This document shows positions 9,018 to 46,517 of a stretch of 64,000 nt of DNA, one piece after another. A model generated the notes under the pieces. That model worked only from the letters and a program-made list of their open reading frames with translations. It did not search any database and was not told the DNA's origin. How positions within the stretch are numbered: the stretch's first letter is position 1; each line of letters opens with the position of its first letter. Source of the DNA: Lysobacterales bacterium (GTDB lineage: Bacteria; Pseudomonadota; Gammaproteobacteria; Xanthomonadales; BPKI01). The position numbers and the translations under genes are program-made. The DNA is taken from the NCBI GenBank assembly GCA_026005055.1, contig BPKI01000001.1:1364001-1428000 (forward strand), read 5' to 3'.

Positions 9018-9797
9018 CTAAGTCTTCCTCGGCCACCAGAGGAAAAACCGACTCACCCGCCGCTGGTAATCACGATAGAGCTCGCCGCGGGAAGCGAGCG
9101 CTTGCTGCTCGACGAAGGGCACGCCACTGATCCAGTTGAGCGAGACGAACATCAGCACCGGACCGAGCCAGGCGAGCCAAGCGATGGGCGAGCCGATGGC
9201 GAGGAAGACGTAGGCGAACCAGTGCAGCCATTCGAAGAAGTAGTTCGGGTGGCGAGAATAGCGCCAGAGGCCGACTTCACAAACCCGGCCTCGATTCGCA
9301 GGATCGGCGCGGAAAATGGCGAGCTGTCGGTCGGCGAGCCATTCGCCGCCGAGCGCGACGACCCAGACCAGCACGGCGGCGGCGCCCCAAGGCCAGAAGT
9401 CGAGGAGCTCGCCGTGGCCCGCCGCCAGGAATGGAACGGAAAAAATCGCCACGGCCAGCGCTTGAAGCTGGAAGAAGGCGAAGAACTTTCCCTGGTGACC
9501 TTGCCAATGTGCGCGCAGTCGCCGATAGCGCCCGTCCTCCTCCTCGTTCAACACTCGAACCAGCAGGTGCATCGCCAGGCGAAAGCCCCAAAGGCCGCCG
9601 AGCAGGGCGAGAAGGAGCCGCGAGAGGCTGCTGCCATCGCCGACCGCGCTGTACCACACCGCCGCCGCGCCCATCAGCGCCGACCAGGCCACGTCCACGT
9701 AGCCGGCGTTCACGGTGCGGCGCGAGAGCTCCCAGATCACCGTCATGACGACGGCGGAAGCGATCCAGACCACCAGCCAGGAGGCGAGCATGCTCAT
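9018..9797 (-). CDS. DUF1295 integral membrane protein (steroid 5-alpha-reductase/isoprenylcysteine methyltransferase-like fold)
   Basis: A 259-aa polytopic inner-membrane protein with about six hydrophobic helices. The signature GLWRYSRHPNYFFEWLHWF near the C-terminal third is the NADPH- or SAM-binding-like motif shared by DUF1295 and steroid 5-alpha-reductases. Its start overlaps the stop of the DUF2878 gene (ATGA, 9794-9797), so translation is probably coupled. DUF1295 proteins recur beside Cfa-type methyltransferases, which suggests a redox or tailoring role in lipid modification. The exact substrate is unknown. Confidence 0.88.
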   Translation of the reverse strand: MSMLASWLVVWIASAVVMTVIWELSRRTVNAGYVDVAWSALMGAAAVWYSAVGDGSSLSRLLLALLGGLWGFRLAMHLLVRVLNEEEDGRYRRLRAHWQGHQGKFFAFFQLQALAVAIFSVPFLAAGHGELLDFWPWGAAAVLVWVVALGGEWLADRQLAIFRADPANRGRVCEVGLWRYSRHPNYFFEWLHWFAYVFLAIGSPIAWLAWLGPVLMFVSLNWISGVPFVEQQALASRGELYRDYQRRVSRFFLWWPRKT

Positions 9798-10336
9798 CGC
9801 AATGCTCCGAAGGCGAAAAGCGGTGAGCGGCGTAAGCGTGCCGCGAGCTCACAAAGGAGCGGCGTCAGCAGCGCCCAGACCGGCGCGAGCACGCTCAGGC
9901 TCGAGAGAGGATCTGGGCCCAGGCTGGCGGCCTGCCAGCCATGGGCGGCGGCGAAGTAGGCGAGCGGCGCACCCAGGCCGCCCAGACCGGCGGCGAGCAG
10001 GGGACGCGTTCCGAGGAAGGCGAGGGAGTGATTGAGGGTCAGCGCGAAGGAGGCCCACAGGCCCAGAATCCATAGAGGCGCTGGCAGTGGGCCGGCGAGC
10101 CGGTATTCGATCAGTCCGAGGGTCGACATGGCGCCGTCCACCACCAAGCCGCAGAGCAGACACAGGGCGATCAGAACGAGGTCGGCTTGACGATGGGGCG
10201 AGACGAGGAGCTGCCAGGCGGCATAGAGGCTGGTCAGGGCAAGCCCGGGCAGCAGAGTGCCCTTCGCCGCCCCCACCACCCAGGCTAGCCAGCAAAGCTG
10301 GAAGCCCAGCGCGTTGAGCAGGAGCCTCGACTTCAT
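9794..10336 (-). CDS. DUF2878 membrane protein
   Basis: A 180-aa protein that is almost entirely hydrophobic, with around six short membrane helices. It starts MKSRLLLNALGFQLCWLAWV and has a WASFALTLNHSLAFL segment typical of DUF2878. The ATG at 10336 overlaps the stop of cfa by four bases (ATGA); a longer reading frame exists upstream but would only overprint cfa. DUF2878 has no established activity. Its constant company with Cfa, DUF1365 and the FAD oxidoreductase points to a role in the same lipid pathway. Confidence 0.85.
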   Translation of the reverse strand: MKSRLLLNALGFQLCWLAWVVGAAKGTLLPGLALTSLYAAWQLLVSPHRQADLVLIALCLLCGLVVDGAMSTLGLIEYRLAGPLPAPLWILGLWASFALTLNHSLAFLGTRPLLAAGLGGLGAPLAYFAAAHGWQAASLGPDPLSSLSVLAPVWALLTPLLCELAARLRRSPLFAFGALR

Positions 10337-38721: not shown

Positions 38722-38807
38722 GGCGGCATGTCCGGAAGGCGGCCGGCTACTTGTAACCCAGCGCTGCTCGGCTGAGCGGGGACGGGCCGATGGCCGTTCA
38801 GGCTGGA

Positions 38808-41693
38808 TTATGGGCACTGTGCCACGGGGGCGAGGAGAGGTGCCGACGCCGTGTACTCCGGGTAACATCGCTTCGGTCCCCTCACGGAGCGTGTGTCATG
38901 CTTCGGGCGCTCCTTTGTCTGGCCGCATTCTGGGCCTTCGCGTCGCAAGCGCGCGAGTTTCGCGAGCTTCCCTCGGCGCTGGTGCCGGTCGAAGTGCGTG
39001 GCGTGGGCGTGGATCCGGAAACCCTCAGCCCTGCGGTCCTGCTTCAAGAGATCGAGGGCAAGCGCGTCTTGCCCATCTATGTCGGTTGGACCGAGGCCGA
39101 AGCGATCGAGCGGGCCCGCCAGCGCGCCCGGCCCGAGCGCCCGCTCACCCACGAACTCCTCGGCGACGTTTTCGAGGCGAGCGGCGCCACGATGAGGCGC
39201 CTCATCATCGACTCGCTGCGCGAGGGGGTCTATTTCGCGATGATCGAATGCGAGCTCAAGGGGCGCGAGGCACCCGTGCAGCTCGATGCGCGGCCGAGCG
39301 ATGGCATCGCCCTCGCTCTGCGCTTCGAGGTCCCGATCCTGGTGGCTGAATCCCTGCTCATGGTGCCGGGGGCCCCGGAGAGCGCTCGCGAGTCCGAGAT
39401 CACGGCGGCGCGGCCGTTTCCGCCGTTCCCAGGTACGTGAAATCCACGCGCGCGTGATTACGGCCCCGTCGAGGGCGAGCACGCTGTGCCCGCCCGGTCG
39501 GGCGAGGACGACTCGCACCCAGGCGCTCGCCTCGGCCTGTGCGACGGGCGCGCCGTCCAGGAACCACAGCACCCGGTCCTCCGCCCCGATGGCGCGGAGC
39601 TGGATCGCGGCCGGCGCGGGTGAGGCGGTGAGGAGGCGCCCCCCGTGCGGGATGCCCTCGATCGCCAGCCGCCCCGCGCGATGGATGGCGCAGGCTGGGG
39701 CCCAGGCGGGCGGCGTGCTTCGCGCGCGCAGTTCGGCATCGAGCCAGGGGAGCGCGCGCGCTGGCCAAAGCGCGAGCGCCGTGCGGCGCGTCGGCCCGGT
39801 GGCGCAGCCCGCCTCCACCCGAAGACCGCTGGCGGCGTCGCTGAGTACCGTCTCGATCCGCGCCCCGAGGCGAGGCAAGTGTCGCTCCGGGAGCGTCGGC
39901 GGGAGGCGGCCGGCGAGCGCCAAGCCGCGTCTCTTGCGGTGGCAGAAGGTCGCCGGGGTCCGCTCGGCAGGGGTTCCGAGTGGCCAACAGATTTCCCGTT
40001 CGACCACGTCCGTCGGCCGTGGCGGGCGCGGCAGGCGCAGCGGATCGGGCAGGGTTGCGACCAGCTCGCGCAGCAGTCCGAGCGCCCGCTGACCGTCCAG
40101 CCCGCGCACCCCGCCACCGTCGGGGCGGCCGATCCAGACCCCGAGCGTCACTCGGCCATTCACCCCGAGAGCCCAGGCGTCGCGGAAGGAGTGACTGGTG
40201 CCGGTCTTGAAGGCGAAGGGCGCCTCTGCGCCGCTTGCGAGCATGTGCCAGGTCAGCCAGGCCGGTCCCTGGGCGAAAACCGGCCGCGACTGCGCCGGCT
40301 CTTCGAGCGAGAGCCTGGGCGAACTCAGGGTGCCGCCGTTGCCGAAGACGCCGTAGCCGGCAGCAAGCTCCAACAGGCGGGTCTCCACCGCCCCGAGGAT
40401 CATCCCCGGGGACGGCGGCTCGCCGGGCGCGAAGCGCAAGGGGATGCCCGCTCGCGCGAGGCGGGCCGCGAGCCGCGCGGGGCCGGTGCGCGCGATCAGA
40501 TCGACCGCCGGGGTGTTGAGCGATTCGGCGAGAGCGGTCGCCGCACTCACCGCCCCGCGGAAGCGACGATCGAAGTTGCCGGGACGGTAGTCGTCGAGGG
40601 AGAGAGGGGCATCCACCAGCAGGCTCTCGGGATGAATGAGCCCATCCTCGATCGCCAGGGCGAAGAGGAAAGGCTTGAGCGTCGAGCCAGGGGAACGGAA
40701 GCGGGCGGCGTAGTCGAGGGAGTCATGTTCCCCGGCGCGGGGGTCGAGGCGCGAGGCATAGACCAGGACCTCTCCCTGGCGATGGTCGATGACCACCGCC
40801 GCGGCGGCGAGTCCCGGCGCGCTCTGGGCGAGGTGACGGAGGAGCAGCCGTTCCGCCCGCCGCTGCAGCTCGCGGTCGAGGCTGCTTCGGACGCGATCGC
40901 CGGCGCGGGCGATGCGCTCGGCGAGGCGCGCCGCCTCGCGCGGGAAGCTCCGGCGAACCGTGGGAACCGGCTCGGCCAGGGCCCGCTCGACTTCTTCCGC
41001 TGACCACAGGCCCGCTTCCGCCATGCGCCGGAGAAGGGTGTCACGGGCCGCTCGCGCGGCCTCGGGACGACGATCCGGGCGGAGGCGGCTCGGCGCTCGG
41101 GGGAGAACCGCGAGGAGGGCAGCCTGGGCATGGTCGAGCTGGCGTGGTTCCTTGCCGAAATAGGCCAGGCTGGCAGCACGCACGCCCGAGAGGTTCCCGC
41201 CGAAGGGGGCGAGGGCGAGATAAAGCTCCAGGATCTCGCGCTTGTCGAATCGCCATTCCAGCTGAAGCGCGCGCAGGCTCTGCCTGAGCTTACCGGCGAG
41301 GCCGCGGGAGGTCGGCTCGATCAGCCGCGCGGTCTGCATGGTGAGCGTCGAGGCGCCCGACACCACCCGCCCCGCGCGCAGGTTCTGCCAGGCGGCGCGC
41401 AGCACCGCCAGCGGATCCACACCGGGATGGTGGAAAAAGCGGCGGTCCTCGAGTGTGAGCAGCGCCTGCAGATAGCGCGGCGAGACCTCCTCCAGTCGCG
41501 ACCGAAATCGCCAGTGGTGGTCGGCGCCGGGGAGGACGTGGAGCAGCTTGCCATCCCGATCCGATACTTCGGCGGCATAGAGCGCAGTCGGGGGCAGCGG
41601 CGGCGGGAACAGGCGGTCGAGCAGAAGGAGCGTCCCGGCGATCCCGGCGAGCGTCGTCAGCGCGAAGCCGATCCGACGGCTCGGGAGTCTCAC
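38808..41693 (-). CDS. pbpC: Penicillin-binding protein 1C with aberrant C-terminal read-through
   Basis: Bifunctional peptidoglycan synthase partner of alpha-2-macroglobulin. It starts with GTG at 41693, overlapping the macroglobulin stop (GTGA). After one N-terminal helix comes a GT51 transglycosylase domain with the catalytic Glu at residue 82 (LEDRRFFHHPGVDP). A transpeptidase domain follows with SxxK at 336-339 (SPGSTLKPF), SLN and KTGTS, then the PBP1C C-terminal domain. That domain should end near base 39440, about residue 750, close to the 770 aa of the E. coli protein. Here no stop occurs, and the frame runs on for about 210 residues of biased sequence antisense to the whole nuclease-family gene. 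The added tail has no family character, so lost termination or an indel is likely. Confidence 0.85.
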   Translation of the reverse strand: MRLPSRRIGFALTTLAGIAGTLLLLDRLFPPPLPPTALYAAEVSDRDGKLLHVLPGADHHWRFRSRLEEVSPRYLQALLTLEDRRFFHHPGVDPLAVLRAAWQNLRAGRVVSGASTLTMQTARLIEPTSRGLAGKLRQSLRALQLEWRFDKREILELYLALAPFGGNLSGVRAASLAYFGKEPRQLDHAQAALLAVLPRAPSRLRPDRRPEAARAARDTLLRRMAEAGLWSAEEVERALAEPVPTVRRSFPREAARLAERIARAGDRVRSSLDRELQRRAERLLLRHLAQSAPGLAAAAVVIDHRQGEVLVYASRLDPRAGEHDSLDYAARFRSPGSTLKPFLFALAIEDGLIHPESLLVDAPLSLDDYRPGNFDRRFRGAVSAATALAESLNTPAVDLIARTGPARLAARLARAGIPLRFAPGEPPSPGMILGAVETRLLELAAGYGVFGNGGTLSSPRLSLEEPAQSRPVFAQGPAWLTWHMLASGAEAPFAFKTGTSHSFRDAWALGVNGRVTLGVWIGRPDGGGVRGLDGQRALGLLRELVATLPDPLRLPRPPRPTDVVEREICWPLGTPAERTPATFCHRKRRGLALAGRLPPTLPERHLPRLGARIETVLSDAASGLRVEAGCATGPTRRTALALWPARALPWLDAELRARSTPPAWAPACAIHRAGRLAIEGIPHGGRLLTASPAPAAIQLRAIGAEDRVLWFLDGAPVAQAEASAWVRVVLARPGGHSVLALDGAVITRAWISRTWERRKRPRRRDLGLASALRGPRHHEQGFSHQDRDLEAQSEGDAIARPRIELHGCLAPLELAFDHREIDPLAQRVDDEAPHRGAARLENVAEEFVGERALGPGALAGPLDRFGLGPTDIDGQDALALDLLKQDRRAEGFRIHAHATHFDRHQRRGKLAKLARLRREGPECGQTKERPKHDTRSVRGPKRCYPEYTASAPLLAPVAQCP
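38898..39440 (+). CDS. Exported bifunctional nuclease (BFN/DUF151) family protein
   Basis: A 180-aa protein: signal peptide (RALLCLAAFWAFASQA) followed by a complete BFN domain. The domain is recognised by VLLQEIEGKRVLPIYVGWTE, RPLTHELLGDVFEASGA, VYFAMIECELKG and LDARPSDGIALALRFEVPIL. Plant and bacterial relatives have weak DNase/RNase activity. Export is unusual, since most bacterial members are cytoplasmic. The ATG at 38898 lies 176 bp from the divergent DUF4139 start. The whole gene lies inside the antisense extension of pbpC, but its domain integrity shows it is the real coding strand. Confidence 0.87.
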   Translation: MLRALLCLAAFWAFASQAREFRELPSALVPVEVRGVGVDPETLSPAVLLQEIEGKRVLPIYVGWTEAEAIERARQRARPERPLTHELLGDVFEASGATMRRLIIDSLREGVYFAMIECELKGREAPVQLDARPSDGIALALRFEVPILVAESLLMVPGAPESARESEITAARPFPPFPGT

Positions 41694-44600
41694 GGCCCGA
41701 CGATGCGGATATGCGAAGGCTTCGGGCTGTCGATGCCGTACACCCAAGGCCGGTACATGTCCTCGGCCCGCGCTGCGGGCACTTGATACTCGCCGGGCGT
41801 GACCGCGGTCATCACGTAGAACAGAGTGACCTCGCTGCCCGCCCAGGACATGGGCATCGCAGCGAAGTAGCGGTCGTCCCTGAATTCCTCGCGGTCGGGG
41901 GTGACGCCGTGATGTCGCTGGCCGACCGCAAGCCCGTCGATCAGCAGGCCGGGGAAGGGATCGTGGTCGCCGAGCGCAGGAATTTCGAGCTCGAGGCCAG
42001 CGGGGAGGAGGTCCTCGACCAGGAGGTTCGCGACGGGCTGGGCGACGCTCAGTCGGATGCGCCCGATCACCACCTCACCCTCGGTGAGCTCCCCGCCCTC
42101 GAAGGGCGTGCCGTCGCGCCGGAAGTAATCACGGCGGATGCTGATGCCCTCGCTCCTCGGCGCCGGCGGTGCGGAGGGCTCACCCGCCAGTTCGACGAGC
42201 ACATAGGCCAACTGCTCGCCCTCGTTGCGGATGGTGAGACCGTCGAGGCTCTCGGCGGGGATCTCGCGGCGCAGCGGACCTTTACCCTGGAGCGCCAAGG
42301 CTCCTTCGCCACCGTCGAGCTGCAGGGCGAGCGGGCGTGCATCGCTTGCCCCGAGTTCGCCTAGGCGGAGCATGGTGGCGAGCTCGAAGGTGCTGAGTCC
42401 GCTCGACCAAGCATCCTGTCCTCCTCTTTGGCGCGCGCTCCATTCGCGGTGCGCCTCCCAGAGCAGGGAGGCGGCGTCGCCGATCCGGTGGCGGGCGATC
42501 ACCAGGGCGACGCTCAGGCGTTCCGCGAGCGGCGAGGCGAAATCGGCGTGAAGACCGCCCGGGTGCGGGCGCGTCGCGCGCATGGCGCGAAGCGCCTCGC
42601 GCGTCAGCCGCTCCTCGCCGGCGAGGTGGAGGGCAGCCGCGAGGTAGGCGAGCGCGCGCGGCCCCGGCGCCTCGCCGCGTCGCTCGTAGAGCGAAAGGAG
42701 TGCGGAATGCTCTCCCCGTCCGGCGCGCGCGAGGACATAAGCCGCGTGCGCATGGTAGAGAAAGCGCAGCCGGTCGGGCTCGAGGCTGTGGTGGAAGCTC
42801 GGATCACCGCGCAGCAGATCGCGCCGCATGGCCTCGAGCGCTCGCTCGAGCATGCCCGCGGAGACAGCATGGCCCGCCTCCTCGGCATCGAGAAGAAGCT
42901 CGGCGACGAGGGGGGTGACCATCGGATTGGGGATCGCCGATTCCGGCCACATCGCGAAATGGCCATCCGCGAGCTGCATGCCGGCGAGGCGGGCGAGGGC
43001 GCGCTCGAGGAGGACGGAATGCGCCTCGCCGGTACCATCGAGGGCGGCATAGGCCCGGCCGATGGTCTGCTCTGCGCAGCCGAGCGGGAAGGTCTTGAGT
43101 CGCTCTCGCGCGCTCTCGAGCGGGAAGGGCGGGTAGGCCGCGGCGGTCAGGCGCGCGGCCACCGAGCCGGGCACGAGACCTTCGGCGAGGCCGAGGGGCA
43201 AGGTGCGGGAGCGCCTCGGTCCGAGCTCGAAGGCGAGACTGCGGTGCTCGGTGGGTGCGATGCCGCGCACCGCGATCTCGACGCGGCGTTCGAAGCGGTG
43301 TTCCCCGGCCTCCGCCTGGATCACCAGCCGGGCGATGCCGCGGGCGATGCGCGGGCTGATCTCGAGGGGGACCCGCCGACGCTCCCCCGGCGCGAGCGCG
43401 AGCGAGAGCCCCTCGGGGCGCAGTTCGAGGCCGGTGCTGCCATCGAAGCGCAGACGGACCGGCAGTTCACGCTCGAGGGTGTTGTGGAGCACCACCGAGG
43501 CCTGTCCGCGGTCGCCCGGGGCGCGGTGGGGGAGATCACGAGTGCTCCGCGCACGGTCGTCACGGCTTCGGCATCGCCGAAGCGTTCCCGTCCGTAGACC
43601 AAGGCGTTCAGGCGCAGGCGGCCGTCGAAGGCGGGCGCGTCGAAGGTGAGCTCGGCGCGACCTTTGGCGTCCAGCCGCACCGGTCCGATGCGCAGGTCGG
43701 GGATCTCGACCTCGGCGCGCGGCCGGGTGGGGGTGGGCGGTGCCGGAGCCGGCGCCGCGTCGCCGCCGAAGCGCAGCCGCGCGAGGGTGCCCTCCACTTG
43801 ACCGACCACGCGCCCGTAGAGATCGCGCAGTTCGGCGCCGAACATCCGGCGCGCGAAGATCGCTCCGAGCAGCGCGGGAATCCGGTAGCGGGTGATGCCG
43901 AGCGCGCCCTCGTCCACGGCGTAGAGGATGACCTCGGCCTCCTGGCCGGCCAGCTCCGGCGCCTCCACGGCGATCGACGCGCGGCCGCCAGGCTCGAGCG
44001 TCGAGGGGGCCTCGAGCCGGACGGTTGCCGCATGCGCGCTGCGGTCGACGGGTAGCGGCAGGATGCCGATCGCGCGGGCGGGTCCGGCTCCCCCGCGGCC
44101 CATCGGCCGCAGCACGATGACCGAGACGTACACGTCCTCGCGGATCATCTCCGGCGTGAGCTCGAGCTCGAGCCGGGTTCCCGATCGCGCCTCGAAGCGC
44201 CGGCGGAGCAGCGGCCGGTCGGCCTCGACCATCAACAGCGCGGGCCCTGCGTAAGGTGGATCGACGCTGAGGGCGAGGCGCCCGCCGCCTCGCGCCGCGG
44301 TGCCGTCGAGGCTCAGCTTCACGCGGTCGGGCACGAGCTCGGCATCGGACCCGCTCCACCCCGCGCGGAACGGGAGCTTCGTCTCCCTGCCGGTGGCGGT
44401 GTCACGCGCGACGAGCAGGTACTCTCCCCAGTCGATCGGAAACTCGACGTTCGCCGGTTGGCTCGGATCGAGGCTGAGCCGCTGCCGTCCGACCTCGGTT
44501 TCTTCGACGCTGCGGCGCGGCTCGAAGCCCCCGTCCTTGAGCAGGATCCACACCCACTGTTCGCGACGGCGAAGCAGAACGACCTCGACTTCGCCACCGA

Positions 44601-46470
44601 GCGTTCGCCCATCGCGCGCGAAGCGCTGGATCGCGAAGGAGACCCGACTCTCGGCCCGCGCGCCTTCGCCGAGCGCAAAGCCGGGCGCGACTCCGATCAG
44701 CTCCGCGGCTGGCCAGAGGGTGGCCGAAGCCTTGCGCCGCAGCGCCCGCCCGCCGCTTTCGAACACCGTGACCTCGACCTCGAGATCGCTCGGCGCGGGG
44801 AGATCGCGCGGCGGAGGAATCGAGAGCTCGGCGCGGCCGGCGGCGTCGAGCTCGCCTTGCTCGATCAGATCATCCCCGCTCGGCCAGCTCGCCGCGAGGT
44901 CGCCGAAGTACCAGCCGCTGCGATCGGCGAGCGGCCGCGCCGATGGACTCAGCCGCTGCCGCACCTCGAAGCGTTCGCCCGCCGCCGGCGCCCCGTAGAG
45001 ATAGGCCGCATCGAGCGTGAGTCGCAGCGGCTCGCCGACCTCCGGGCGATGGGGCGAGAGCGCGAGCTCGAGCGCGAGACGCTCGGGCAGGAACTCCTCG
45101 AGGTGCACCGGCAGGGCGGCGAGCGGGGCTTCGGTACTGGGATCGGTGCGAAGCTCGACACGCCAGCGACCGGTCGGCCAATCCGCCGCCGAGCCCAGCT
45201 CGAGGCTCAACAGGCCGAGGGGCGTCGCGGTGAGCCGCCGCTCGAGCACGGCGCGGCCGTCGGGTTGGATCAGGCGGGCGAAGAGCGGCGGCATCACGGT
45301 CGGCAGCTTGCCTTCCCGATCGCGCAGCAGTGCGTCGATGCGCAGCGTCTCGCCGGGGCGGTAGAGATCGCGTCCCGACCATAGCGCCAGCGACCAAGGC
45401 GAGGGGAGGATGCCGCCGACCTCGAACTCGGAGAGCTTGAGCACGGTCTGGGTGAGCGAAATCCAGGCATGATGCGCCCCGCGCCGGGCATAGACGACCT
45501 GTCCGGAGCGCGGGCGTCCGGGAAGGAAGAGCGCGCCGTCCGCCTCGGTCCGCCCGCTCAAGACCACTCGACCGAGCTCGTCGAGCACGGCGACCTCCGC
45601 ATCGGCGAGCGGCTCGCCGCTCTCGAGGGAGGCGGCGAGGACGAGCAGCCCTTCGGAATAGAGGCGGGTGTGGATCGCGAGATCGGTGACGAAGAACAGC
45701 GTCGTGGCGCGGTCGGCCGCGAAGCTGCCCGCTGGTCGCATCGCCGCGACGTACACCCCAGGGCGGCGCAGCTCCGAGATGCGCTGAATGGGCAGCAGCG
45801 AGTTCGCGCTCTGGCTCTCCCCCGCGGCGATCTCGAAGCGTCCGCTGTAGGCGAGCTCGAGCGCCGGGGCCATCTCGCTGAGCTCCCAGCCGCCGAGGTT
45901 TCGCGCGCGCGGCGGCTCGGCGAGCAAGGCCGGAAGCTCCTGCGGCAGGACCCTGAAGAAATCGACGTCGACCTGGCGGATCCCGATGCTCTGGACCGGA
46001 AGGCCGCGATGGCCATGCGCGGGCAGTACCGTCCCGCTGCTGCCGAAGCGCACGAGGCCTTCGCTGACGGTCCCGCCGGCGGTCACCGTCTGCGCGAGCG
46101 CCTTGCCGAGCTCGGAGCCGTCCACGGCGCGCAGGCCGGGACAGACGGATACGCGGTATTCGGCACCGCGCTCGAGGTAGGGCAGGATCAGGCGCTGCCG
46201 CATCCGGTCGAAGATCGGCCCGATCGCGATGGGACCGTGCTGCGCGTGTTCGATGCGTACGCACAGATCGAAATCCTGTGCTGGGTCGAGGGCGCGGGTG
46301 AAGCCGAGGGCGATCGCCGGCGCCCCTTCGTGGTTGATGCCCTGCGCCGATTCGAGTTCGAAGTTCGGAGGCGCCGAGGGAAGCTCTTGCGCGGGCTCGC
46401 GGGAGCAGCCGAGGGCGAGGAGCAAGACGGTGAGCGATAGCGCACCGCAGGGCGAGGAATGACGCGGCAT
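41690..46470 (-). pseudogene. Bacterial alpha-2-macroglobulin (YfhM type), frameshifted
   Basis: Periplasmic protease-trapping lipoprotein that works with PBP1C. The N-terminal part, from the ATG at 46470, has a lipobox (LLALGC) and macroglobulin domains up to TVRGALVIS. At about 43517-43523 the frame breaks: upstream reads T-A-P-R, while the conserved continuation A-P-G-D is in another frame. The second part holds the thioester motif CAEQ (43067-43078) and the C-terminal domains, ending at 41690 and overlapping the pbpC start. The family normally has PRFLAPGD here, so the observed sequence fits a 13-nt deletion. Neither half alone should be functional. A sequencing error cannot be excluded. 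Confidence 0.85.
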
Positions 46471-46517
46471 GGACAAGTCCCCCGGCAGGATCGTGAGGCG
46501 TGTCGCCCGAAGCCGCC

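Follow-up and report, generated by a model that had tools for sequence, protein, structure and literature searches.

Gene content and organization of the locus

The minus-strand gene that runs from 46470 to 41690 of the window (the whole 64 kb stretch of DNA that was analyzed; Table 1) is a bacterial alpha-2-macroglobulin gene of the YfhM type in a member of the Xanthomonadales. Its start codon is an ATG at 46470 on the minus strand, and the N-terminal part contains a signal peptide with the lipobox L-A-L-G-C. In the upstream frame, Pfam matches were found to bMG1, A2M_bMG2, bMG3, MG2, bMG5, bMG6 and the bait-region domain A2M_BRD. The C-terminal part carries the CUB, thioester and bMG10 domains, and this downstream half matches the solved structures of the E. 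coli and Salmonella YfhM proteins (4ziq, 5a42, 4rtd and 4u48). The C-x-E-Q sequence that characterizes the YfhM type is found as C-A-E-Q at 43067-43078, downstream of the break. Relatives align with the broken gene along its full length at 31-36% identity. The YfhM-type order of domains (MG domains, bait region, CUB and bMG10) is present, but it is spread over two frames, and the single uninterrupted frame expected of this type is absent. The C-terminal region of the macroglobulin was detected once in the genome, and the broken locus is the only YfhM-type macroglobulin gene detected there.

The adjacency to pbpC that is expected for the YfhM type is also present. In E. coli, yfhM and the gene for penicillin-binding protein 1C are arranged as an operon (PMC4498604). 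When compared with E. coli YfhM (ECAM) and the Salmonella alpha-2-macroglobulin, which belong to the thioester class and lie in an operon with pbpC, the window gene is alike in its domain order, lipobox, thioester motif and downstream pbpC; it differs in the frame break within the A2M domain, and no intact product is expected.

On the minus strand (window positions 38808-39467) the frame of pbpC shows no stop at the end of the BiPBP_C domain near 39467 and continues for about 220 codons, an extension opposite in sense to a convergent gene that occupies 38790-39440. A stop loss or a frameshift at the end of pbpC is possible. No Rfam matches were found within the window.

Table 1. Positions of the macroglobulin gene parts, the break and the neighbouring gene in the window.
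Feature	Position	Strand	Basis
N-terminal part of the alpha-2-macroglobulin (YfhM-like lipoprotein) gene	43522..46470	-	ORF 46476..43321, frame intact
Break, net loss of 13 nt, inside the PF00207 domain	43517..43532	-	Spacing compared with orthologues
Out-of-frame tail of the upstream frame, to the first stop at 43321-43323	43321..43521	-	ORF list
C-terminal part, -1 frame, open to the stop at 41690-41692	41690..43522	-	Pfam CUB_A2MG and bMG10
Thioester motif G-C-A-E-Q, intact, downstream of the break	43067..43081	-	Sequence comparison
pbpC (penicillin-binding protein 1C), next downstream, overlaps the end of the macroglobulin gene	39427..41747	-	Pfam Transgly, Transpeptidase, BiPBP_C

The frame break

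On the reverse strand, V-R-G-A-L-V-I-S-P-T-A-P-R is read in the upstream frame, which then stays open until the stop at 43321-43323, and A-P-G-D-R-G-Q is read in the -1 frame from 43522. These two frames had been described in the initial annotation, and both the open reading frames and a six-frame codon-usage model, trained on the neighbouring genes together with both halves of the macroglobulin gene, agree with that description. The model, which is independent of alignments, places the frame switch at 43532/43533. The single minus-strand CGCCCCG was likewise found where it had been reported, at 43517-43523. Past the switch, the upstream frame overruns by 211 nt, compared with 68 nt or less at the other same-strand switches in the 64 kb window. 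The macroglobulin break is the sole unexplained frame switch within the window, and the macroglobulin gene shows no second lesion. Another flagged frame switch, at position 970, marks the point where murJ and ribF meet and not a lesion.

The break lies inside the PF00207 domain, upstream of the intact thioester motif. In L062, an intact relative, residues 943-1024 make up this domain, and residue 996 is where the motif lies. A profile search found no PF00207 match over the threshold in the genome, in which the break splits the domain.

Comparison with relatives and size of the loss

The stretch that begins with the V of V-R-G-A-L and runs to the A of A-P-G-D measures 32 nt in the window gene, whereas it measures 45 nt in each of the relatives tested from the order (49/49); 13 nt are thus missing, which is exactly the shortfall that had been claimed. 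The same register was found in 72 named loci, many of them from outside the order, whose windows were read by eye; these come from a second collection (n=80), in which the motif pattern matched 72 loci and missed 8. The P-R that stands two residues before the A is invariant in the 49 relatives. It is followed by V-L or V-M, with A or I rarely at the first position, so that the order reads P-R-V-L/M-A-P-G-D and the motif P-R-F-L given in the initial annotation is wrong for it; P-R-F-L is seen more often in groups that are more distant, e.g., Pseudomonas and the enterobacteria. Orthologues that lack these residues had been named as contrary evidence, and they were looked for among both sets (49 and 72); every orthologue examined keeps the residues.

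The relatives used in this comparison are distant. The best amino-acid identity in the order and class searches was 38%, and peptides of the window protein, when matched to named genomes in a first scan, gave no close relative. The named relatives at the head of the second genome scan (Stenotrophomonas, Lysobacter, Pseudoxanthomonas, Luteimonas, Arenimonas and others), together with the distribution of hits in the order search, point to the Xanthomonadales as the order of the source genome. In one draft contig, from Pantoea wallisii (L103), yfhM is likewise spread over several frames, with breaks away from the motif.

One possible option is that the break is a sequencing or assembly error and that the cell carries an intact gene. 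The sequence is known from one unreplicated assembly, the gene is G+C-rich (68% G+C in the window) and it carries no other lesion, all of which would fit such an error. Yet, 13 nt are missing rather than 1, the nearby homopolymers are short (4 C and 3 G), and the window is free of other unexplained frame switches. Ten further stretches of 20 kb each were also sampled from the genome for frame switches, and most of them show no suspicious one. A one-base error in particular is a poor explanation, as was argued in the initial annotation, because the ancestor must then already have been four residues short, and no relative shows this. Taken together, we regard an error of sequencing or assembly as improbable.

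Two successive events, that is, an older in-frame loss of residues followed by a single-base indel or a read error, would leave net lengths identical to those of one event. However, a loss of residues at this site was seen in none of the relatives examined, and a tolerated in-frame loss there would therefore be exceptional; we consider this course of events very unlikely. Another hypothesis is that a full-length protein is still made by programmed -1 frameshifting or by transcriptional slippage, which would suit a downstream frame that is the -1 frame and is open to its natural stop. Nevertheless, the shifted product would still be short of residues at a motif that is conserved in every relative examined, the relatives do not share the break, and reading the junction by eye revealed no canonical slippery heptamer (X XXY YYZ). 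The chance that the gene is expressed in this way appears negligible.

The explanation that best fits these data, and which we hold with high confidence, is that a single-copy gene of the yfhM type was inactivated by one small deletion, of net 13 nt, in the A2M (PF00207) domain.

How the bases were lost

In the initial annotation the deletion was attributed to slippage between two CGCCCCG copies. The length of 13 nt stands, and the two ancestral copies are compatible with the data. We simulated ancestors from the codons used in seven coding stretches within the window, together with the residues seen in relatives, and a repeat of at least 7 nt at the deletion ends arose in 6.4% of them and one of at least 6 nt in 15.4%. 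Among the 72 named relatives, none has a 13-nt-spaced repeat of at least 6 nt at the site, and in most of them the residue just ahead of P-R is a different one.

For A-P-R and A-P-G-D to overlap as they do, it suffices that Ala is encoded by GCC and Pro by CCG, and by the local codon counts this is expected by chance with a probability of about 0.22. As weak evidence, the overlap favours a retained left copy of the repeat by a factor of roughly four to five. If deletions are assumed to be ten- to thirty-fold more frequent at short repeats, the posterior for an ancestral repeat of at least 6 nt is about 0.65 to 0.85. We set our confidence in slippage below this posterior to allow for error in the assumptions: slippage between short repeats may be the likeliest single cause of the deletion, at slightly better than even chances.

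Expected consequences of the deletion

Translation would start normally, leave the frame at about 43522 and terminate at 43321. The predicted product would be a lipoprotein of roughly 1,050 residues without the thioester, CUB and bMG10 domains. These domains trap proteases. Judging from the family, the protease-trapping function should be lost, and a polar effect on pbpC is possible.

The domains on both sides of the break are intact, and the order with pbpC is operon-like. The remainder of the gene is without lesion, and therefore either the gene was lost recently or this allele is specific to the strain. The locus is probably an ordinary pseudogene that was recently broken; it resembles other bacterial pseudogenes that arose by short deletions, with one small frame-disrupting deletion in a gene that is otherwise complete, and shows no notable difference from them. 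For annotation, this means that the locus should be marked as one frame-broken yfhM and not as two genes.

A further-reaching reading is that the lesion has become fixed in the lineage as a sign that a small-genome branch of the Xanthomonadales has generally lost its periplasmic defence against proteases while keeping pbpC without its usual partner. We consider this unlikely; if the lesion were fixed in a lineage, the locus would offer a natural example in which pbpC is present but the macroglobulin does not work.

Genome context and other broken genes

The assembly consists of one contig of 2,441,650 bases with a completeness of 99.96%, and the source genome is the only member of its family in the collection searched. 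At 2.44 Mb, the genome is small next to most of those listed from its order.

The genome holds some other broken genes, and the macroglobulin break is not exceptional in it. In one of the ten 20-kb stretches, a SulP-type sulfate permease is split over three frames (L055, about 9100-9975). In another stretch of the same genome (L053, 7300-9000) the coding signal is weak and rapidly shifting; this region, which lies upstream of a DUF559 protein, may be a mobile element that has decayed.
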